Below, piece after piece: positions 12,289 through 32,287 of a DNA stretch of 32,938 nucleotides. Each line of letters begins with the position of its first letter. Position 1 is the stretch's first letter. The position numbers were made by a program, and so were the translations under genes. The notes under the pieces are model-generated. The model had not been told where the DNA came from, ran no database searches, and saw nothing but the letters and a program-made list of their open reading frames with translations. The stretch is from contig JANXSD010000019.1 of the NCBI GenBank assembly GCA_025352785.1, positions 1 through 32,938 of the forward strand, in the 5' to 3' direction. The DNA comes from Bacteroidota bacterium. Its GTDB lineage: Bacteria > Bacteroidota > Bacteroidia > AKYH767-A > OLB10.

Positions 12289-13137
12289 TTAATATTCCCA
12301 AAGATCAATTTCGAAGTTGATCATATCTTGTTTTATTCTTTCCGATTCTAACAATGCATCCAGTGGATTCGTTTTGTAATCATCAACGCGACGATTGTAA
12401 ACGTTATCTTCTTTTGTGATGTAGCTATTAAACATTCGTTTCATAAAAATATCTTCGAAGGTTAGTCGCATAGAACTGTTATAACGATTTGCTACTTCTG
12501 CGTTAGCAAATATTCTACGAGCTTCCGGATAGTAGATCCAGAATAATAATTTCTTCTGTCCACCTTCAATAAGGTTTCCATCCTGATCACGAGCCAAAAC
12601 CATAGGGCAAATTCCTATAATTCTGCAATCCATCACCGAACGTTGCTTATCAAAGAACCACTCTTCCTTCAAACGATATTGAACTACGTCATCTGGGTTG
12701 AACTTACGAAATACAGTAGAGTCATATTCATCATACGGAGGATCTGGACGCGTTACTTTGATGGCAACAGAATCGGCTCCTCCAACTTTAGAAAACTCAC
12801 CAGCAGTCATCGGAAGAGTGAACTCGTCATCTTGTGGATCATAAGCTGTTAAACTTCCTTCATTCACAGCGTCCATCATTACGCTGATTAAATTTTTGCG
12901 GTCTTTCGTCTCACCCGACTTAGGGTATCTTAAAGGAGCATTAATTTTTTCGTTCAAATCAATATGTCTCCAGATTTTCTTTGACCACATTACGTCAGCT
13001 TCCCTGAGATATGGATAAGGGATCACGCGGCGAGCCGGATTGTTCTCTCTTACATATATCCCATCAAGTACATTTTGTGCACTCGCTATGGCAGTAAAAC
13101 CAATAACTGTCACTAATAACAGGATGAACTTTTTCAT
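12289..13137 (-). CDS. gldN: T9SS component GldN/PorN
   Basis: This 282-residue periplasmic protein has a signal peptide (MKKFILLLVTVIG...ASAQ) and the family core ADVMWSKKIWRHIDLNEK shortly after cleavage. GldN/PorN binds GldK/PorK to form the large periplasmic ring under the outer membrane that is part of the T9SS. A longer frame begins at 13179, but the start at 13137 gives a normal signal peptide and is preferred. It is the last gene of the cluster, 73 nt after gldM. A perfect -7 box (complement of 13176-13184) lies in that gap, but with no -33 element it is weak evidence for a separate gldN promoter. Confidence 0.95.
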   Translation of the reverse strand: MKKFILLLVTVIGFTAIASAQNVLDGIYVRENNPARRVIPYPYLREADVMWSKKIWRHIDLNEKINAPLRYPKSGETKDRKNLISVMMDAVNEGSLTAYDPQDDEFTLPMTAGEFSKVGGADSVAIKVTRPDPPYDEYDSTVFRKFNPDDVVQYRLKEEWFFDKQRSVMDCRIIGICPMVLARDQDGNLIEGGQKKLLFWIYYPEARRIFANAEVANRYNSSMRLTFEDIFMKRMFNSYITKEDNVYNRRVDDYKTNPLDALLESERIKQDMINFEIDLWEY

Positions 13138-13210
13138 GGGATGAATTTGTGTTAATTGCACCGTTTCAAGTAAACGCAAAATTATGAATTAATGTTGCGG
13201 ATTTATTTTT

Positions 13211-14797
13211 TTATTGAACTGTCAATGGAATGGCATTTACCTGGCGTTTTGTACCATCAGGCATCGATACATTAATGTATTCAAATAGAATTTTATCACC
13301 AGGACGGGATTGATCAATAATCGTTTTCATGTCGCCAGTTAAGGTTCCACTTTCGGCCGTTTTCTCTATTGGATCACGACCTTTTCCATAACGACTCATC
13401 TTAAAGGAAACTACTCGAGGATAAAGATCAAAATCAAATCCTTCCATCGTTGGGATAATACCTTGCTGAGCCGCTAACTGTGCTTTCGGAATGTTACCAT
13501 CTTTCTTACCACCTATCTTAGCTACTGGATCAGGAATTCTCTTTAAACGAAACTTGAATTCACCCATTTTGGTAGGCTTATCGTTAAAGTCAGCATTTAC
13601 GGTGATCGTAGCTTCTCCTGGTTGTCCTTTCGCTTCAGCAATAAAATGGCCTTTCGGTAATTTAGGATCTTGCGTTAACGTTAATGATCCAGCAACTGAA
13701 TATTTCACTTTCTCATCAGGAACTCCTGGTACCGATATCGTCATTGGATTCGGAACACCAATGTAAATTACATTCATCTTATCCGCAGATACTGTTGAAC
13801 TTGGCTTAGCCACGATGTATTTTATCGGACCAAAAGGAATTGGCTTTACAACACCATCCGGACCCTTTACTTTAATAATACCTGCATACGTTTTCTCACC
13901 AACTCCTGATGCAGATAAAGTATACGTACCAACACCACCATCTACTTTCAATGGGCTACCATTAACAGTAATTTCTGGATCACTCGTAGAACTCATTGCG
14001 GCTAAAAAGATATCTGCAGTATACTGTTGTCCTTCGATAAGATAACTCGATGGTGCAATAACTTTTGCTGTAAGAGTATCAAATTTAAAATCGGCAGCAT
14101 TGATAGACGATAATAAATGCGTTATCAGTTCTGACTCAGCATTCTTAACATCTGATTTAGTTTTTGTAATTAATGCTACTGTAGCAACAACTGGATTATG
14201 GTAGAAATTAGCCATTTCCCATGTACGCTTTCCGTCTTCTGGAACTTTTGGATCATCCGTATTAAATAATGCATTCAATCGTTTTTCAAACTTAGGACGA
14301 TCACCCGCATCAAGGGTAATTAAAATACCCTTTTTGTAGTCAATAATCTTCTTTTTCATTTCTGATGCTTTGTGCCCCAAACCATCGTTCTTATCACCAC
14401 ACATGTAATTAGTCGGGATATCATAGTTATCCGTTCCTTTCATGTCATGTAAACTTATTGATTTTGCTGATGGCTCCAGTTTATCAGTTTTACGGATAAG
14501 TTCGTCTGTCAAACTTGTCAAATACTTATCCATATCATCAGACAATTTTTTTATCTGTTGCGCTTTTTCAAATAGCGGCTTTGTCTTTTTGGGATCTACT
14601 TCCATTTGTTTTTGGAAAGCAGCATATGCTTGAGCATTTTTTCCTGTAAGGTTACTTACAGTAGTCTCAAGACTATCGTTAATTGTAATGAAAGCATTGA
14701 TAATTTCTTTGGACACGTTCAATGCTAACAATGCTGTTAACACCAGATACATCATCCCAATCATCTTCTGCCTCGGGGAGAGGTTATTTCCAGCCAT
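13211..14797 (-). CDS. gldM: T9SS motor component GldM/PorM
   Basis: The protein has 528 residues, close to the usual GldM length. The N-terminal cytoplasmic stretch MAGNNLSPRQKMIGM carries Arg9, at the position described as coupling to the GldL glutamate. One membrane helix follows (about 13-33). The long periplasmic part contains a helical domain and several beta-rich domains that reach the GldK/GldN ring. GldL and GldM form the proton-driven inner-membrane motor that powers secretion and, in gliding species, movement. The gap to gldL is 50 nt. Nothing appears truncated. Confidence 0.96.
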   Translation of the reverse strand: MAGNNLSPRQKMIGMMYLVLTALLALNVSKEIINAFITINDSLETTVSNLTGKNAQAYAAFQKQMEVDPKKTKPLFEKAQQIKKLSDDMDKYLTSLTDELIRKTDKLEPSAKSISLHDMKGTDNYDIPTNYMCGDKNDGLGHKASEMKKKIIDYKKGILITLDAGDRPKFEKRLNALFNTDDPKVPEDGKRTWEMANFYHNPVVATVALITKTKSDVKNAESELITHLLSSINAADFKFDTLTAKVIAPSSYLIEGQQYTADIFLAAMSSTSDPEITVNGSPLKVDGGVGTYTLSASGVGEKTYAGIIKVKGPDGVVKPIPFGPIKYIVAKPSSTVSADKMNVIYIGVPNPMTISVPGVPDEKVKYSVAGSLTLTQDPKLPKGHFIAEAKGQPGEATITVNADFNDKPTKMGEFKFRLKRIPDPVAKIGGKKDGNIPKAQLAAQQGIIPTMEGFDFDLYPRVVSFKMSRYGKGRDPIEKTAESGTLTGDMKTIIDQSRPGDKILFEYINVSMPDGTKRQVNAIPLTVQ

Positions 14798-14847: not shown

Positions 14848-15657
14848 TTATTTACCAGAATTCGTGTTCATGGCTGATAACATATTGCCATAAACTGTAT
14901 TAAGAGCGCCAAGGTTTTTAGCTAACTTACCAACTTCCTCTTTGTACTTTTTAGTATCTTCAACTGTATTATTTAAATTGGATAGTAATTGACCAATTCC
15001 ATCATAAAACTTAGTTGTCTCTTTCATGCGTGTACTAGCCTCCTGTAATTGAAGCTCATAAACCGCATTCAAAGCAGCCATATTTTTACCTGCTGATTTC
15101 ATTTGGTCACCATAAATCTTTACTTCCTCTTGTGAAGAACTCATCGCGTTCATCGCTTGAGCTGCCTTATCATAAGATGCAGATAATGAAGAAACCTTTT
15201 GTGATGCTGCAGTCACGTTTTTTGCATATTCGTCTGTTGCTACTGCCGCATTCGAAATGTTTGCCAACTTAGAAGTATTCTCACTTAATGCTTTTAATCC
15301 TGTTCCTAAACTTTGAATTAAATCAGGTCCGATCTTAGCTTCAGATAATAACTTATCCAATTCTTGTGCTACTGGATCTCCAGCTTTCTTATGCTTCTTT
15401 TTGTCTGTACCATCATGCATTCCCGCTAATTCAGGATACACTAATGACCAATCCACATCTTCATGTGGTGGTTCAAATGCAGAAAAGAAGAAGATTACTG
15501 CCTCTGTCAAAAGTCCTACTGTTAACATTAATCCAGCACCTTCCCAGTGTTGAATTTTAAAGAGGGCTCCTACGATTACGATTGCTGCACCGAAACCATA
15601 AAGCTTAGCCATGAATTGTTTAAACGCTTTCCCTTGCGTTATTTGAGCTATCCCCAT
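14848..15657 (-). CDS. gldL: T9SS motor component GldL/PorL
   Basis: This 269-residue inner-membrane protein has two adjacent helices at about residues 18-36 and 42-62. The second contains Glu52 within LLTEAVIFFF, corresponding to the conserved membrane glutamate implicated in proton flow. The motif FKIQHWEGAG between the helices is a family hallmark. The remaining ~200 residues are cytoplasmic and largely helical, with a coiled-coil look and many Ala, Ser and Lys. It forms the pentameric stator-like unit around the GldM dimer helices. It is 97 nt downstream of gldK, in a gap that holds a hairpin. Confidence 0.96.
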   Translation of the reverse strand: MGIAQITQGKAFKQFMAKLYGFGAAIVIVGALFKIQHWEGAGLMLTVGLLTEAVIFFFSAFEPPHEDVDWSLVYPELAGMHDGTDKKKHKKAGDPVAQELDKLLSEAKIGPDLIQSLGTGLKALSENTSKLANISNAAVATDEYAKNVTAASQKVSSLSASYDKAAQAMNAMSSSQEEVKIYGDQMKSAGKNMAALNAVYELQLQEASTRMKETTKFYDGIGQLLSNLNNTVEDTKKYKEEVGKLAKNLGALNTVYGNMLSAMNTNSGK

Positions 15658-15754: not shown

Positions 15755-17056
15755 TTAGAAATCAGACTTGTCGCGTCCCATGAAATCCATTACGCAACGA
15801 AATCCAATGTACGATTTACAAGAATCCTGAAATTCATAGCTACGTGTCCCTGTTTGAAGGAAATAACCAATGTCCTTCCAAGATCCGCCACGAATCACCT
15901 TACGTTTTAACGCAGAAGGATCATTATCTTTTGCTTCATACGTATAATCAGGATTCAAATCGTGCATAAAATTATAAGCTGATTCATCAAAGGCGTTGCT
16001 TGTCCATTCCGCAACGTTTCCTGCCATACAATACAAACCATAATCGTTTGGCCAATAAGAAGTTGCTTTTACAGTATAGAAACCTCCATCATCGATATAA
16101 TTACCACGTAATGGCTTGAAATTCGCTAAGAAACATCCTCTACTATTACGGATGTAAGGACCTCCCCAAGGATATGGATTGTTTTGTAATCCTCCACGTG
16201 ATGCATATTCCCACTCACTTTCTGATGGAAGACGGAAATCTTGTACTATCTCTTCCCCATCTTCTTCAAGATAACTATTTAATAGGCGAGTACGCCAAAC
16301 GCAAAATGCTTTTGCTTGTTTCCAATTTACTCCCACAACAGGGTAATCATCATAAGCTGGATGCCAAAAATATGCTTTAGTAATTGGATCATTAAATGAA
16401 TACGTGAAATCATGAATCCAAGCCAACGTGTCTGGATAAATGTTGATAATTTCCTTTTTTATGTATACTGATCTATCTGTTCTACCTTGTGGTCTGTTGG
16501 CTAAAGAACCAGCAGCTCCATCACGATCCTTGCTATAATCCTTTTGGGCCGCAGCTTGAAGATCTAGCCAGTAAAATTCAAAGTTTAATTTGCGTGAGTC
16601 GATTTCTTTACGACGATAAAAACGTTCACTTTCTGGCAAATAAAGCTCTGATAATGTTTCTACATTGGCTTCATCGTCCCATTTAATTCTTTGATCCCAG
16701 TCAATATGTTCTCCATATTCTCCTTCATCAACAATGTGATCGCCTCCAATTAGTCGGTGAGCAAGAGAATCCCTCACCCAATAAACAAATTGGCGATACT
16801 CATTGTTCGTTATTTCTGTATTGTCCATATAAAAAGCATGTACTGTTACGCTTTTTGTTTGAGCAATTTGAGAATAAGGAACATCTTGGTCACCAGGACC
16901 CATGTTGAATGAGCCTTGTGGAATAAATACCATCCCGTATGGGTCTGCTTGGTACCATTTTTGCCTTCCCTGGACTCCTACTAGTTGTCCGCGGTTACCG
17001 CCTCCACAACTACTGAGCAACAGCACTGTTAAAGAAGCAATAATCAGGTTTTTCAT
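15755..17056 (-). CDS. gldK: T9SS outer-membrane lipoprotein GldK/PorK
   Basis: This 433-residue lipoprotein has a signal sequence ending in LLLSSC with lipidated Cys17, followed by GGGN. The main body is an FGE-sulfatase (formylglycine-generating-enzyme-like) fold: GMVFIPQGSFNMG near the start, LPSESEWEYASRGG and MAGNVAEW in the middle, and RGGSWKD...GFRCVMD at the end. GldK/PorK lines the periplasmic face of the outer membrane and forms the ring with GldN. The open frame reaches back to 17260, overlapping porP, but the lipoprotein signal fixes the start at 17056. It lies 146 nt downstream of the PorP-like gene. Confidence 0.95.
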   Translation of the reverse strand: MKNLIIASLTVLLLSSCGGGNRGQLVGVQGRQKWYQADPYGMVFIPQGSFNMGPGDQDVPYSQIAQTKSVTVHAFYMDNTEITNNEYRQFVYWVRDSLAHRLIGGDHIVDEGEYGEHIDWDQRIKWDDEANVETLSELYLPESERFYRRKEIDSRKLNFEFYWLDLQAAAQKDYSKDRDGAAGSLANRPQGRTDRSVYIKKEIINIYPDTLAWIHDFTYSFNDPITKAYFWHPAYDDYPVVGVNWKQAKAFCVWRTRLLNSYLEEDGEEIVQDFRLPSESEWEYASRGGLQNNPYPWGGPYIRNSRGCFLANFKPLRGNYIDDGGFYTVKATSYWPNDYGLYCMAGNVAEWTSNAFDESAYNFMHDLNPDYTYEAKDNDPSALKRKVIRGGSWKDIGYFLQTGTRSYEFQDSCKSYIGFRCVMDFMGRDKSDF

Positions 17057-17202
17057 GCTTTGTTTGCTTTTGGGTTCTGGATACACTAAAAACGTAAACA
17101 TCGAACGTTGAAAATCCAGCTTTAGTATATGCGACATTTTCAGTTTGATGATACGTTTAGGCTCCAATTTAAGTTGCTTTCCGGGTGAAATAATTCCTAT
17201 TA

Positions 17203-18114
17203 CTATAGAAACCTTACATTTCTGATTACAGGGGTAATTTTCTTTTTCACTTTGAAACAATAGCCAAGCATAATCTCATGACTACCATCACTATATTTCT
17301 TAAGATTTGATGTTGTGAAATCGTAAGAGTATCCAATGCGTAAATTGTCTGTAATATTTAATCCTATTAATGCTACGATAGCATCATCATTGCGATAAGA
17401 AGCACCTAACCAAAAACGATTATTAACATAAGCGTTCAAATTAATATCAGCTGTTGTGTTTCCTGCAATTGTCTTTACAAATATCGAAGGCTTTAAAGTG
17501 ATCATCGGCGTTACTTCTGCCGAATATCCAATCATTGCATAATAATGACGCTCGAATTTAATCGAAGAATTGTCTAAGGTTACACTTGGCTCCGATAAAT
17601 GTGATGCCGAAACTCCAACATATAATTTTTCAGAATTGTAATATAATCCTGCTCCAACATCAAATGCTGAACCACTAGAATTAGCTGGAATAGAAGCATC
17701 ATTAGGATCAACGGGCTTAAATCCTGAAGCATCAACCTTATCTTGCAATAAGCCTAAATCAACTCCAATTCCTAATTTGCCATTGCCTACATCAAATTTA
17801 TATGCGCCAGCGAGTTTTGCATTAAAGGTTTGGAATGCTCCGTTCTTATCTGAGGCAATGCTTAACCCTAAGCCTACTTTGTTGTTTGCAAATGGAGCTT
17901 CAACACCAAGAACTCCTGTCTTTGGGGCTCCGTCTCCAAAGCCAACCCATTGTGAACGGTAAAGCAGGTGTGCGCAAATCGCTTCGTTACTTCCAGCATA
18001 AGCTGGATTCACGTATAAACGGTTAAACATATTCTGGCTGAACTGGGGGTCTTGTTGTGCTAGGGCTAAGGTGGATATACAACCAGCTACTAAAACAGCT
18101 AAAATTTTCTTCAT
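17203..18114 (-). CDS. porP: PorP/SprF family outer-membrane protein
   Basis: This 303-residue protein has a signal peptide (MKKILAVLVAG...LALAQ) followed by QDPQFSQNMFNRLYVNPA, the hallmark of the PorP/SprF family. The body alternates polar and hydrophobic residues as a beta-barrel, with repeated Gly-rich turns (for example GNGKLGIGVDLGLL). PorP/SprF proteins associate with the T9SS core or with the secretion and surface assembly of particular cargo such as SprB. Its position directly before gldKLMN matches the porPKLMN order known from Porphyromonas gingivalis. The ATG at 18114 is chosen over an upstream frame opening at 18186 because it gives a clean signal peptide. Upstream, 18115-18348 is AT-rich; no promoter there is convincing. 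Confidence 0.92.
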   Translation of the reverse strand: MKKILAVLVAGCISTLALAQQDPQFSQNMFNRLYVNPAYAGSNEAICAHLLYRSQWVGFGDGAPKTGVLGVEAPFANNKVGLGLSIASDKNGAFQTFNAKLAGAYKFDVGNGKLGIGVDLGLLQDKVDASGFKPVDPNDASIPANSSGSAFDVGAGLYYNSEKLYVGVSASHLSEPSVTLDNSSIKFERHYYAMIGYSAEVTPMITLKPSIFVKTIAGNTTADINLNAYVNNRFWLGASYRNDDAIVALIGLNITDNLRIGYSYDFTTSNLKKYSDGSHEIMLGYCFKVKKKITPVIRNVRFL

Positions 18115-18348
18115 ACAGTGCGATCGATTTTTCGGATGATTCTGGGGGATAAAGTAAGTAAATATTATTCTAAATTTCAAAACCATATCATGCGAACATT
18201 GCCTTTATTAATTTATTCACAAGATCAATAATTACCATTTTTTTGTCATTTTGAGAGGCAAAACGCGATATTTTAACATCTCGAAATTACTCTAAAACCT
18301 GCATAAATTATTTTCAAAAGAAATTTATTTGAACGTCTCAATAAGCCA

Positions 18349-19521
18349 TTATGCTAGTTTTTGAAGCGCATTCCATAGCCGATCAGGTACTTCATTGTTA
18401 CATGCTTGTTGATAATCTTTATAAGAACATGGCAGTAAATGTTGACTTAAATACCGATTTCTGCTCCCTTCCATCGGAAGTTTCATCCACCATCGGTCAC
18501 TCTTAGTACTCTTTATAAAGGTAATTTCATGCTCTACATTCGCAATAGCTACTATATAAGTAATGTAATTATTGGCATTTAATAGAGGTAAATCTTGCTT
18601 TCTGCTAGATACTCCTTCTATAAAATACCAAAGCATTTGTGCCACTAAACTAGCTGTTTGACCATTAACATCAAATTTAGGATTGTATTCGTAAATCCCA
18701 AGCCCGCTCAACTTATCACTCACTCCAGCATACATCATTATTTGACAAGCTTCTTCACCAAAAAAACCATTAGGCGAGGCTTGTGAATTCCCAGGAGCAT
18801 CACTTTGTCGAATTGCCGATAAATCAACTGTCACCAAGTCAGCATTACGAACGATGGGCTCTGTTTCTTGAATATCATCACGCACTTGACCTAACCTAAA
18901 GGTGTCGAAAAATAATTTTTTCATGAGCTCAACACTTTCTGTACCTACATAATAAGTTTGGTATCCAATGTTGCTAAAATTAAAAAGGTAATTTGGTTGC
19001 TCAAGTATTATTTTACCAAGAAATGTCTCTGCATTTACTGGGTCTTCGGGTTGCCCCAAGTCAAATTGCGAATCAACACTTACGATGTTTATGATTTGCT
19101 CTAGCATTTTATAACCAGCATAATGCCCATAAGTTAAATCTTGACTTCCTCCTAGAATCACCGGTATAATTTTCAATGGGATCAATTCATAAATTACCGT
19201 AGCTATTGCGGCATATGTATCTTCAAGTGTTGCTCCACGACGGATATTTCCTAAATCAATAATGCGTTGTGGATGTTGATGAACCTTCAAACTATAAAAT
19301 TTTTCACGAATGAGGTCCATCCCATCGGCAGCTCCTATGTTTAGTTGGTTCCCTCTATCCTCCCCTACTCCAATGATGGCTAAACGAACACCCTCAAAAT
19401 CAGGAAACTTTCCTTCTTGATAATAGGATTGGATAGTAGTGCCCAAAGCATCCGAAGGGAGTGCTTGACCATTGTGCCATAATAGGCCAGCATCGAGTGG
19501 TTGGAAATAAGCTTCCAGCAT
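18349..19521 (-). CDS. Arginase/formimidoylglutamase-fold protein with degraded metal site
   Basis: This 390-residue protein belongs to the ureohydrolase (arginase/agmatinase/formimidoylglutamase) superfamily by length and motif order. However, the metal ligands are altered. The GGxHD motif reads GGSQD (124-128, Gln127 for His). The DAHxD motif reads DSQFD (150-154, Gln152 for His). The DxD of the third motif reads DLS (Asp233 kept, Ser235 in place of Asp). Asp150, Asp154, Asp233 and a downstream Glu278 are kept. Three of the six classical manganese ligands are thus replaced, so ordinary hydrolysis is doubtful. It lies 21 nt downstream of topA on the same strand and 234 nt upstream of porP. 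Automated annotation would probably call it formimidoylglutamase; the sequence argues for a different or non-enzymatic role. Confidence 0.85.
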   Translation of the reverse strand: MLEAYFQPLDAGLLWHNGQALPSDALGTTIQSYYQEGKFPDFEGVRLAIIGVGEDRGNQLNIGAADGMDLIREKFYSLKVHQHPQRIIDLGNIRRGATLEDTYAAIATVIYELIPLKIIPVILGGSQDLTYGHYAGYKMLEQIINIVSVDSQFDLGQPEDPVNAETFLGKIILEQPNYLFNFSNIGYQTYYVGTESVELMKKLFFDTFRLGQVRDDIQETEPIVRNADLVTVDLSAIRQSDAPGNSQASPNGFFGEEACQIMMYAGVSDKLSGLGIYEYNPKFDVNGQTASLVAQMLWYFIEGVSSRKQDLPLLNANNYITYIVAIANVEHEITFIKSTKSDRWWMKLPMEGSRNRYLSQHLLPCSYKDYQQACNNEVPDRLWNALQKLA

Positions 19522-19542: not shown

Positions 19543-22086
19543 CTATTTCGTCTTTTTTCTTGCAGTAGCTGTTTTCGAGGCTGCTGCCTTTACTGGAGCT
19601 TTCGCTACAGTTTTGGTAGCCTTTTTCTTTGCAGGGACTTTTGAAATCGTTTTCGCAACAGAAGTTTTCGCACCTGTTGTTGCAGGAGTTTTCTTTGCTA
19701 CCGTTTTCTTTGCAGGAACTTTCTTCGCTGCAAAAGGAGCAGCCTTTCTGCCAAACGAACGCTTTGGCTTGCCTCCATTTTCACCAGCAGCTATAATAAT
19801 GTCCAAACAATCCTGTAAGGTTAAGGCATTGGGATCTTTGTCTTTTGGCAGCTTATAATTAAGTTCATTAGCAACCAAATAAGGTCCCCAGCGTCCATTC
19901 AATAACTTCACATCCGGACGCTCCTCAAAAATTCGAATAATACGCTCTCGATCTGTCTTACGTTTGCCCTCTATAAGTTCAATGGCACGATCAATTTCAA
20001 TGGTATAGGGATCATCCGCTTTTGCTAATGAAACAAAAATTCCATTATGACGAGCATACGGCCCAAATCTTCCAATGCTGATGGTCACATCTTCTTCTTC
20101 GTAATTACCAATATTGCGCGGCATCTTAAAAAGATCTAAAGCCTCTTCAAGAGTAATTGTTTCAAGGCGCTGACCGGGTCGTAATTTGGCAAATTGAGGC
20201 TTCTCATCTTCTGTCTCTCCAGTAATCTGAACCAATGGTCCGAATCGTCCAATACGAGCGGATATTTTTTTACCATTCTCTGGATGAACACCAAGGATTC
20301 GCTCACCGGTAGCACGCTCACTATTTTTCTCCGTGTCTTCTACCAATTTATGAAAAGGTCCGTAGAATTTCTTTATCATTTTCGCCCATTGCAAATTACC
20401 TTGAGCGATCTCATCAAATTCTCTTTCCACATTCGCAGTGAAATTATAATCAAGAATTTCAGGGAAGTTTAAAACCAGGAAATCAGTTACCACAGTTCCG
20501 ATGTCTGTAGGAAACATTTTCGATTTTTCTGCAGCATAATTCTCCGTTCGGTCTTCTGTACTAACCTTACCATTTCTCAAAGTAAGAACAGTAAAAATTC
20601 GCTCTTTGCCAGGACGATCTTCTTTAATCACATAACCTCTCTTTTGAACAGTAGAGATCGTCGGCGCATACGTTGAAGGTCGACCAATTCCCAACTCTTC
20701 CAATTTCTTTACCAAACTAGCTTCTGTATAGCGAGCAGGAGGTGATGAGAATCGTTGTGTTCCCGTGATCGTATCTAAATCCAACATTTGACCGATCGTT
20801 AAAGGAGGTAATAATCCATCTTTTTCTTTCTCAGTATCATTCTCCTCATTTTCATCATCAGTAGATTCAAGATACACACGAAGAAAACCATCGAAACGAA
20901 TTACTTCGCCAGTAGCAATAAATAATTCTTTCGATTTATTGTTTTCAATATTTACAACGGTACGCTCTAATTGGGCATCTGCCATTTGTGATGCAATTGT
21001 TCGTTTCCAGATCAGTTCATATAAACGACGATCCGCATTTTCACCGTCAATAGTTGACAAATCTAAATATGCAGGTCGGATCGCCTCATGAGCCTCTTGT
21101 GCATTTGCTGATTTGGTCTTGAATTGTCGTGTGAAAGAATATTCCTTCCCATACATTTTACTGATGGCAACTTTTGCCTCGTCCAAAGCAAGTTGTGATA
21201 AATTCACTGAATCCGTTCTCATATAAGTGATCTTTCCACTCTCATAAAGACGTTGTGCAACAACCATTGTTTGAGCAACTGAAAAGCCTAATTTACGACT
21301 AGCTTCTTGTTGTAATGTAGAAGTAGTAAAAGGTGCGGCCGGCGATTTTTTTCCTGGCTTCACTTCAAGGTTAGATATCTTGAAATTTGCATTTGCTAAT
21401 TTATTCAATAATGCCTCTGCATCTTCTTTAACTGGGAATCGTTGAGAAAGCTCTGCCTTAAGCAACGTGCTATTTCCCTTTTTATCTTTAACAATAAAAT
21501 GAGCTACTAACTTATATGCCGATTGTGATTTATGACCTTCTACATCACGCTCACGCTCTACAATTAATCTCACCGAAACAGACTGCACTCTGCCAGCAGA
21601 AAGTGATGGCTTAATTTTTTTCCAAAGTATTGGTGACAATTCGAAACCCACCAATCGATCAAGAATACGACGAGCCTGTTGCGCATCTACCAAATGCATA
21701 TCTATAAAACGTGGTTTACTAATCGCCTCCTGAATGGCTTTTTTTGTGATCTCATGAAAAACGATACGTTTCGTATTACTTTCTTTAAGATTAAGTGTTT
21801 CAAATAAATGCCATGAAATAGCTTCTCCTTCGCGATCCTCGTCAGTTGCTAACCAAACCGTTTTTGCTTTTTTACTCAACGACTTTAATTCGTTCACCAC
21901 CTTTTCCTTGTCAGGGGATACTTCATATAAAGGAGAAAAACCATTGCCAATGTCAATGCCTTTGTCATTTTTCACAAGGTCACGTACATGGCCATAACTG
22001 GACTTCACCTGAAAATCTTTTCCAAGAAATCCTTCAATTGTCTTCGCTTTTGCGGGGGACTCCACTATCACAAGATTATCAGCCAT
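19543..22086 (-). CDS. topA: DNA topoisomerase I with basic histone-H1-like tail
   Basis: The protein has 847 residues. The TOPRIM domain opens with VIVESPAKAKTIEGFLG and contains the acidic motif TDEDREGEA (81-89). The catalytic tyrosine is Y288 in GKITYMRTDS, and LSAGRVQSV (162-170) is also conserved. It relaxes negative supercoils by a type IA mechanism. The C-terminal part has three topoisomerase repeats (RFGPLVQI, RFGPYARH, RWGPYLVA) but no four-Cys zinc fingers as in the E. coli enzyme. Instead it ends, from about residue 785, in a Lys/Ala/Pro/Thr tail of PAKK- and VAKK-type repeats that should bind DNA nonspecifically. It probably forms a transcription unit with the arginase-fold gene 21 nt downstream. 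Confidence 0.97.
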   Translation of the reverse strand: MADNLVIVESPAKAKTIEGFLGKDFQVKSSYGHVRDLVKNDKGIDIGNGFSPLYEVSPDKEKVVNELKSLSKKAKTVWLATDEDREGEAISWHLFETLNLKESNTKRIVFHEITKKAIQEAISKPRFIDMHLVDAQQARRILDRLVGFELSPILWKKIKPSLSAGRVQSVSVRLIVERERDVEGHKSQSAYKLVAHFIVKDKKGNSTLLKAELSQRFPVKEDAEALLNKLANANFKISNLEVKPGKKSPAAPFTTSTLQQEASRKLGFSVAQTMVVAQRLYESGKITYMRTDSVNLSQLALDEAKVAISKMYGKEYSFTRQFKTKSANAQEAHEAIRPAYLDLSTIDGENADRRLYELIWKRTIASQMADAQLERTVVNIENNKSKELFIATGEVIRFDGFLRVYLESTDDENEENDTEKEKDGLLPPLTIGQMLDLDTITGTQRFSSPPARYTEASLVKKLEELGIGRPSTYAPTISTVQKRGYVIKEDRPGKERIFTVLTLRNGKVSTEDRTENYAAEKSKMFPTDIGTVVTDFLVLNFPEILDYNFTANVEREFDEIAQGNLQWAKMIKKFYGPFHKLVEDTEKNSERATGERILGVHPENGKKISARIGRFGPLVQITGETEDEKPQFAKLRPGQRLETITLEEALDLFKMPRNIGNYEEEDVTISIGRFGPYARHNGIFVSLAKADDPYTIEIDRAIELIEGKRKTDRERIIRIFEERPDVKLLNGRWGPYLVANELNYKLPKDKDPNALTLQDCLDIIIAAGENGGKPKRSFGRKAAPFAAKKVPAKKTVAKKTPATTGAKTSVAKTISKVPAKKKATKTVAKAPVKAAASKTATARKKTK

Positions 22087-30352: not shown

Positions 30353-30980
30353 ATGGATAAAATAAAAATTTTTATTGTTGAAGTGATAAAGATGTTCGGC
30401 AGATGATGGAAGCATTTTTTAATTTGCAACACGACATGCATGTAGAAAAAACTTTTGCGAATGGAAATCTGTTTTTAAATGAATTCAACAATGAAAACTG
30501 TGATGTGGTAATTATGGATATTAATATGCCAGGAAAAAATGGAATTGAATGCATCGAATTGGCTAAAAATATTCGTAATGATATACAATACATTATTTCT
30601 ACCTCCTTTGAAAATCATGAATTTATATTTCAAGCATTATGTGCCGGAGCAAATGGTTACCTTTTAAAATCGGATACAGCCGAATGCCTTGTTTCAGCTG
30701 TACGCGATGTTATGCAAGGTGGTTCACCTATGACTCCTCAAATTGCAAGGTTAGTAGTCAATTCTTTTCAGAAACCTGTTGCCAAAAACTGATGCTTTTA
30801 ATCAATTAAGTGCGCGAGAAAAAGACACCATCACATTTTGGTCTCACGGATTAAATTACATTGAAATAAGTGAAAAATTATTTATCAGGCCGCAGACTGT
30901 ACGAACACATATTCTCAATATTTATGAGAAGCTTCAGGTAAAGACAAAAACTGAGGCGATAAATAAGATTTTTCCAAGAA
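30353..30980 (+). pseudogene. LuxR/NarL-type response regulator broken by two frameshifts
   Basis: The ATG at 30353 opens MDKIKIFIVE and then hits a frameshift. Restoring one A between 30383 and 30384 gives the expected acidic pocket (VEDDKDVRQMMEAF) and joins the frame from 30403, which has the phosphorylation Asp in VVIMDINMPG and the Lys in YLLKSD. That frame stops at 30792. Removing one A from the A5 run at 30784-30788 joins it to LSAREKDTI and the LuxR helix-turn-helix (EISEKLFIRPQTVRTHILNIYEKL). The last codons are cut by the IS4-family element at about 30981. The intact protein would be about 210 residues. Sequencing error at the A run is possible, but the IS insertion supports real decay. 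Confidence 0.85.
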
Positions 30981-32287
30981 TTTTCACTAGCGTCCTAATG
31001 ACAAAATTAATTGTTCTTTGAATAGATTGATAATAAAGCACTTTAGGGTATTTTAAAGTTCAAACGATTTCAATTTACTCTTGAATAAATTGGTTGAATG
31101 AATACGGGAAAATATGTATTTGCTCAAGTAGTTTCGTTAATAGATCCTAACGATTTCAAAAAGTGTGTTGAACGATACGGAGGTAATTATAAAGTAAAAG
31201 ATTTTACATGCTGGCATCAGCTATTGTGCATGATGTTCGGACAATTATCTAATCGTGAAAGTCTTAGTGATTTGACGCTTTGTTTACAAACACAAAAAAG
31301 TAAATGGTATCATTTGGGAATTGGGAGCGCTATTTCAAAATCTAATTTGGCATATGCAAATGAAAATCGAAATTGGAGAATATTTGCTGATTATGCTAAC
31401 ATATTAATCGCTGAGGCTCGGCAAAGTATTATTCCAAATGATGAATTATCTTGTTTCGAAAACCATGCGATTTACGCTATAGATACGACAACTATTGATT
31501 TGTATCTAAACGTATTTTGGTGGGCGAAATTCAGGAAACATAAAGCAGCTATTAAGCTGCATACTATGTTGGATATGAAAACAGAAATACCATGTTATAT
31601 TCATATTACAGATGGTAAAACACATGAAGTAAATGTATTAGACACCATCGAATTTGAAACAAATGGTTTCTATATAATGGATAGAGGTTTTGTAGATTAC
31701 GAACGATTGTTTAATATTAATCAACGTCAAGCTTACTTTATTACAAGAGTAAAAACTAATATGAAATGCAGAAGAGTTTACTCTGCTAGAGTTGATAAGG
31801 CAACAGGCGTATTATGTGACCAAACGATACAATTAATAAATCATTATGCTTTAAAAGAATACCCTGAAAAACTCAGGCGAGTAAAATATTATGACACTGA
31901 AACAAATAAGAAACTTATGTTTCTAACAAATAACTTCGAACTAACTGCATTACAAATTGCATTGCTTTACAAGTATAGATGGAAAATAGAATTGTTCTTT
32001 AAATGGATAAAGCAACATCTAAAAGTGAAATCTTTTTGGGGCCATTCAGAAAATGCTGTGAAGATGCAAATATATATTGCCATTATCACTTTTGTAACAG
32101 TTGCTATTGTAAAACAAAAATTAAAAACGCCCCTCACTCAATACCAAATATTACAGATTTTAAGTTTAACTTTACTCAACAAAACACCCATTGACAGACT
32201 GTTTGAAGATGCCATATTACAATACGTCAAAGAGACTGAACCTAACCAACAGAAACTGTTCTAACTATATTAGGACGCTAATGAAAA
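30981..32287 (+). mobile_element. Complete IS4-family insertion sequence
   Basis: The terminal inverted repeats are TTTTCACTAGCGTCCTAAT at 30981-30999 and its complement at 32269-32287; 18 of 19 positions match, with a perfect 12-bp core TAGCGTCCTAAT. They enclose one intact transposase gene. The element is about 1.3 kb and sits in the 3' end of a response regulator gene. No convincing target-site duplication is visible next to the repeats. Confidence 0.88.
31098..32264 (+). CDS. IS4-family transposase (DUF4372 N-terminus)
   Basis: This intact 388-residue DDE transposase has an N-terminal DUF4372-like domain (DFTCWHQLLCMMFGQLSNRE). The catalytic Asp residues lie in YAIDTTTIDL (about 130-140) and FYIMDRGFVDYERL (about 195). 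The catalytic Glu is in the YREK-type motif YKYRWKIELFFKWIKQHLK (about 300). It cuts and pastes the element between its inverted repeats. No frameshift or stop interrupts it, so the copy may still be active, unlike the two relics at 9.3-10.1 kb. Confidence 0.93.
   Translation: MNTGKYVFAQVVSLIDPNDFKKCVERYGGNYKVKDFTCWHQLLCMMFGQLSNRESLSDLTLCLQTQKSKWYHLGIGSAISKSNLAYANENRNWRIFADYANILIAEARQSIIPNDELSCFENHAIYAIDTTTIDLYLNVFWWAKFRKHKAAIKLHTMLDMKTEIPCYIHITDGKTHEVNVLDTIEFETNGFYIMDRGFVDYERLFNINQRQAYFITRVKTNMKCRRVYSARVDKATGVLCDQTIQLINHYALKEYPEKLRRVKYYDTETNKKLMFLTNNFELTALQIALLYKYRWKIELFFKWIKQHLKVKSFWGHSENAVKMQIYIAIITFVTVAIVKQKLKTPLTQYQILQILSLTLLNKTPIDRLFEDAILQYVKETEPNQQKLF

Follow-up and report, generated by a model that had tools for sequence, protein, structure and literature searches.

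An arginase-fold gene that had been described as lacking half of its metal ligands lies beside genes of the type IX secretion system (T9SS) in a Bacteroidota bacterium, which raises the question of what a ureohydrolase fold does at such a locus. The preliminary description, made from the letters of the DNA, proposed a repurposed structural or regulatory protein possibly linked to secretion. We examined this gene, here called pArg, in its window (the whole 32,938-nucleotide stretch of DNA that was analysed) and in its relatives.

Reading frame, fold and metal ligands of pArg

Inspection of the open reading frame (18349-19521, minus strand) indicated that pArg is uninterrupted from ATG to TAA and encodes 390 aa, with a core at approximately residues 13-309 and a C-terminal extension of roughly 80 residues (approximately 306-390). 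The features of the locus are as follows.

18349..19521, minus strand: pArg, arginase-fold protein with the B metal site lost (open reading frame; PF00491; AlphaFold2 model; superposition on formiminoglutamases)
19138..19152, minus strand: GGSQD motif, residues 124-128, with Q127 at the position of the site-A His (residue numbers converted to window coordinates; family counts)
19060..19074, minus strand: DSQFD motif, residues 150-154, with Q152 instead of the site-B His (residue numbers; family counts)
18817..18825, minus strand: DLS motif, residues 233-235, with S235 instead of the second Asp of DxD (residue numbers; family counts)
18352..18606, minus strand: C-terminal extension of pArg with invariant W344, W345, P364, C365, A373, and P379 (conservation; beyond the aligned range of solved ureohydrolases)
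19543..22086, minus strand: topA, codirectional, 21 bp upstream of pArg (window gene list; commonest neighbour in relatives)
17203..18186, minus strand: PorP/SprF family T9SS membrane protein (TIGR03519, 297 bits)
15755..17260, minus strand: gldK/porK (TIGR03525, 614 bits)
14848..15657, minus strand: gldL/porL (TIGR03513, 245 bits)
13211..14797, minus strand: gldM/porM (TIGR03517, 371 bits)
12289..13179, minus strand: gldN/porN (TIGR03523, 231 bits)

The gene order, miaB / topA-pArg-porP-gldK-gldL-gldM-gldN, agreed with the position between topA and porP-gldKLMN given previously, and the family profiles matched. In a promoter/terminator scan around pArg, terminator-like sites were no commoner than in shuffled sequences and none lay on the pArg strand. 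Near the window end, an IS4 family transposase (31098-32264, plus strand) was preceded by a response-regulator receiver-like ORF (30403-30792).

In the profile search, pArg matched PF00491 at 80.7 bits against a cut-off of 22 and belongs to the arginase/ureohydrolase family. Its score against TIGR01227, the HutG equivalog, was 106.5 bits, less than half of the cut-off of 229.15, which places it outside that family. The AlphaFold2 model, calculated with 65 aligned sequences as input, had a mean pLDDT of 92.5, and residues 13-309 (approximately) were superposed on the Trypanosoma cruzi formiminoglutamase with a Z score of 36.9 and 2.0 Å over 277 residues; Z scores against the solved formiminoglutamases (PDB 4mxr, 3m1r, and 1xfk) were 32-37. 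Residues 310-390 were ordered in the full model and lay outside the range of those structural matches. The modelled fold of pArg is that of an arginase.

In arginases, site A is formed by the first His, both Asp of DxHxD, and the first Asp of DxD, and the site-B ligands not shared with site A are the second His and the second Asp of DxD. The six canonical positions of pArg are occupied by Q127, D150, Q152, D154, D233, and S235; the residue numbering agreed with the earlier reading of the motifs, in which three of six ligands are replaced. Site A has one change, and both non-shared ligands of site B are gone. E278 is part of an EYNP motif (residues 278-281).

The two His losses named in the preliminary description differ as evidence. 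In the alignment, the first His is Asn in the formimidoylglutamases of Bacillus subtilis (3m1r, GGDN) and T. cruzi (4mxr/2a0m, GGGN), although both 3m1r and 4mxr retain DxHxD and DxD. Because true formimidoylglutamases carry Asn there, loss of the first His is poor evidence of inactivity, and only that of the DAHxD His counts. The site-B His and both Asp of DxD are present in the aligned 3m1r, 1xfk, and 4mxr, where pArg has Q152 and S235; at the first motif pArg has Gln, neither the His nor the Asn expected of a HutG. Judged by these alignments, it is the missing DAHxD His and the missing second DxD Asp that are decisive. Compared with HutG (TIGR01227; 4mxr, 3m1r, and 1xfk), pArg is alike in the fold of its core and has it as the nearest family by sequence profile, whereas it lacks this site-B pair, carries the additional C-terminal extension, and has no hut genes nearby.

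As a separate point, it is unsafe to call a ureohydrolase 'dead' on the strength of its GGxH motif alone, given that Asn in 3m1r and 4mxr. The PDB title of a further entry, 4myn, names an N114H variant.

Distribution and genomic neighbourhood

Of the 247 Bacteroidia genomes sampled, 233 had a pArg ortholog (~94%; a few matches were weak), in single copy as a rule, and 59 of the 61 relatives gave a match. Homologues from other classes of the phylum covered the enzyme core alone (mostly query residues 30-325); as they did not reach the extension, they were not counted as members. The 39 members sampled for a tree grouped together, apart from the three paralogs of the window genome (92/96 support), in a topology whose root is unsure owing to the long paralog branches. 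One 80%-complete genome (G018) contained three pArg copies, on contigs C19, C20, and C88 and 57-66% identical to the window protein, through either duplication or a mixed bin.

Among 80 named loci, in some of which the contig ends too early to tell the neighbours, topA was located within 1.5 kb upstream of pArg in 49, often a few bases away and even where gldKLMN was elsewhere, and porP or gldK was directly downstream in 25. In 198 Bacteroidales genomes, GldM was present in 135 carriers of pArg and absent from 2, the corresponding numbers for non-carriers being 46 and 15 (Fisher p ~4e-7, with relatedness ignored). Furthermore, in all 61 of the listed same-contig pairs from Bacteroidales, gldM was 4.2-5.8 kb downstream of pArg on the same strand. 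GldK exceeded its family cut-off in 232 of the 247 genomes of the class; as T9SS is near-universal in the class, co-occurrence is weak evidence.

The proposed link with gldKLMN and secretion was thus upheld statistically and by position, but only in part. Of the 181 GldM-positive Bacteroidales genomes, 46 were without pArg, seemingly mostly one derived group (which includes most of the top GldM scores) and a few others, and T9SS-positive genomes of other families (G058, G248, and G405) were also without it. Because such genomes exist, pArg is dispensable for T9SS in those lineages; together with the fact that topA is the commoner neighbour, the 46 genomes indicate that pArg is not a core T9SS part. 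At two loci of one genus (L067 and L068), pArg was away from gldKLMN and beside murF-gldJ-porP-porU-porV, and in Pedobacter xixiisoli (L152) it was near gldJ and porV, again away from gldKLMN. Several other families retained neither the topA nor the gldKLMN link. The conserved gene order around pArg partly reflects shared ancestry, and the link to T9SS is plausible but partial.

These data bear on the possibility that pArg is a housekeeping protein, connected with topA or with none of its neighbours, with the adjacent T9SS genes a remnant of ancestral gene order. The frequency of topA directly upstream, irrespective of gldKLMN, and the many T9SS-positive genomes without pArg favour this explanation. 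However, it accounts poorly for the rarity of carriers without GldM (2 of 137) and for the second T9SS locus that adjoins pArg in other lineages, and topA, which is universal, predicts nothing on which genomes lose pArg. We consider a housekeeping role unlikely, although far from negligible.

A different neighbourhood was observed at Sphingobacteriaceae-type loci (L129, L140, L144-L146, L148, L152, L156, L158, and L162), where pArg is divergently paired with an HpnA-like NAD-dependent epimerase, itself adjoined by a SerB-like phosphatase. A related epimerase also neighbours pArg in two other families (L069 and L073).

Metal pocket, C-terminal extension and paralogs

The ligand positions were compared in 81 aligned sequences, consisting of the window protein and those of named public genomes. 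None of the 81 kept all six ligands, and substitutions unique to the window genome are ruled out, the pattern being found in relatives and across the class. D150 and D233 were invariant (81 each). Position 127 was Gln in 76, Asn in 3, and His in 2 sequences, and position 154 was Asp in 75 and Asn in 6. Position 152 contained 17 residue types (Arg in 17, Met in 11, His in 9, and fourteen other types). Position 235 was Ser in 62, Gly in 10, Thr in 7, Ala in 1, and Arg in 1, i.e., mostly small residues and not free, and position 278 was Glu in 80 and Asp in 1. In a wider, more divergent set of 78 sequences, E278 was replaced by Asn or Gly in 26, about a third, and in one family of that set (f27) D150, D154, and D233 were all altered. 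The family follows the rule Q-D-any-D-D-small, with no fixed Gln/Gln/Ser signature. The pattern suggested previously is clade-wide but not exact: Gln is common at the first position, the second may vary freely, and a small residue occupies the third; similarly, Asp154 and Glu278 are kept in pArg but not family-wide.

Site B is lost throughout the pArg family of Bacteroidia. The earlier statement that two Mn ions cannot be bound is likely right for that reason, as far as residues at ligand positions can tell, but site A (Gln-Asp-Asp-Asp) is largely kept and may bind one metal or a ligand. Since site A is mostly kept, there is room for some chemistry, and pArg might be a single-metal enzyme or a metal/ligand sensor that accommodates one divalent metal or a guanidino-type metabolite, with altered chemistry or sensing. 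The conservation of D150, D154, and D233, the Gln, Asn, or His at position 127, the E278 still lining the pocket in the main set, and the mostly small residues at position 235 are consistent with this idea, as is the absence of the site-A His from the solved formimidoylglutamases 3m1r and 4mxr. However, the pocket drifts in whole families, at E278 and in f27 at three Asp, where the extension stays, and many invariant columns of pArg sit outside the pocket. A function centred on one metal or ligand is accordingly quite unlikely.

The invariant positions comprise residues of the core scaffold (e.g., Q188, E221, P222, and R225) and of the extension (W344, W345, P364, C365, A373, and P379). The extension motif WW...PCSxxDY is among the best-conserved parts of pArg and is missing from the true enzymes. 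No reliable match was obtained when the extension alone was compared with Pfam, PDB sequences, and Foldseek. Its residues 331-370 (window 18412-18531, minus strand) had a faint SH3-like profile resemblance (spectrin, E 0.045); this resemblance gained no support at the level of fold, as the extension searched by itself, modelled at a pLDDT of only 75, found nothing. In the genus mentioned above, the members (L067:9454-10317 and L068:8900-9829) are approximately 280 aa long; a large portion of the arginase domain's N-terminal half is missing from them, whereas EPxxR and RWW...CSYEDY are still present in the retained C-terminal part.

Besides pArg, which is on contig C161, the window genome encodes three arginase-fold proteins, on contigs C106, C157, and C169; in each of them the DAHxD and DxD-type motifs are intact. 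The C169 paralog, a HutG with the motifs GGGHN, DAHSD, and DID, directly adjoins a gene that, named from its sequence, reads as imidazolonepropionase (hutI); the genome also encodes a histidine ammonia-lyase that scores above its family cut-off. Because a separate intact HutG lies beside hutI, histidine degradation in the genome can be explained without pArg; this and the TIGR01227 score bear out the warning that annotation as formimidoylglutamase would be misleading.

Arginase folds without metal are already known. The Trypanosoma brucei arginase-like protein TbARG has kept the arginase fold but departed in evolution from the binuclear cluster, with nearly all ligands lost; unlike pArg it is eukaryotic, and we know of no comparable extension or gene context for it. 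Such a protein may be a subunit: MetCb of metformin hydrolase is a metal-free arginase-fold partner of the catalytic subunit MetCa, and metCa and metCb are reported to be adjacent genes (PMC11271267). If pArg were likewise the pseudo-subunit of a heteromeric ureohydrolase, it would support an intact paralog. MetCb resembles pArg as an arginase-fold pseudoenzyme with several ligands lost, the absence of bound metal being a feature of MetCb (PMC11271267); its chains were among the structural matches of pArg, and all 61 sampled genomes had at least one arginase-fold match over the cut-off, most of them several, which left no genome where the absence of a paralog would speak against such a heteromer. 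In contrast to the metCa-metCb pair, pArg has no adjacent catalytic partner, its three intact paralogs being on other contigs, none was found among its annotated recurring neighbours, and it is spread through a whole class. A heteromer of the MetCb type is therefore highly unlikely.

Decay into a pseudogene, which the ligand losses and the shortened L067/L068 members might suggest, has a practically negligible probability and is ruled out by frames that are open throughout, by the presence of pArg in 233 of 247 genomes, and by pairwise dN/dS values of 0.02-0.07 (about 0.03) among close members, many pairs having large or saturated dS.

A proposed role of pArg at the T9SS/gliding machine

Purifying selection, conservation of the extension, and T9SS co-occurrence and synteny are observed features of pArg, and the view of a repurposed ureohydrolase fold, to which the PF00491 match, the superposition, and the family-wide ligand loss all speak, is supported; the ligand losses themselves are confirmed and reach wider than first described. 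pArg is most plausibly a pseudoenzyme found across the class, which descends from a formimidoylglutamase-like ancestor and has acquired a conserved C-terminal element. In this scenario, an ancestral formimidoylglutamase-like ureohydrolase in Bacteroidia would have lost the B metal site, and presumably two-metal chemistry with it, and gained the extension of ~80 residues; the protein as a whole has stayed under strong purifying selection. It would now assist or regulate the T9SS/gliding machine without catalysis, its arginase fold providing a (probably oligomeric) scaffold whose remaining acidic pocket perhaps still senses a ligand or one metal. We propose this explanation as a whole tentatively, at somewhat below an even chance. 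Its parts differ in strength: that pArg has a function other than that of a ureohydrolase is very probable, and catalysis is presumably absent, whereas a role in T9SS/gliding is the leading hypothesis, nearly balanced between acceptance and doubt.

The invariant C-terminal element (WW, PCSxxDY) may bind a partner. pArg is probably cytosolic because no signal peptide is evident at its N-terminus, as judged by eye, and since the cytosolic T9SS regulator PorX binds GldL/PorL (PMC10951265), the cytoplasmic domain of GldL is the obvious candidate. PorX shows that a cytosolic protein can act on the T9SS motor, but its fold (CheY-like and PglZ domains) is unrelated, and binding of GldL by pArg is a guess by analogy. 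The lengths of GldL and its tail overlapped in range between carriers and non-carriers of pArg, which gave no support for this partner; we regard GldL as very doubtful.

In a literature search that covered subscription papers sparsely, no secretion or gliding mutant phenotype was found for pArg, formimidoylglutamase was not linked with gldK or with Flavobacterium in any paper, and the papers on arginase and T9SS, or on formiminoglutamase and gliding or gldN, did not describe pArg. In the literature searched, the pArg clade, its extension, and its context appear to be undescribed.

It is conceivable, though unlikely, that the T9SS/gliding motor has in pArg a cytosolic regulator or docking protein not described so far, a retired ureohydrolase conserved across Bacteroidia that possibly couples a metabolite or single-metal signal to GldLM. 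The gene occurs in most sampled Bacteroidia, often beside the T9SS core operon, and could easily be misnamed as a histidine-degradation enzyme. If the role in T9SS/gliding is true, pArg would add a cytosolic player to a machine with a poorly known cytoplasmic side; if not, it would still stand for a pseudoenzyme clade of very wide distribution within the ureohydrolase fold.
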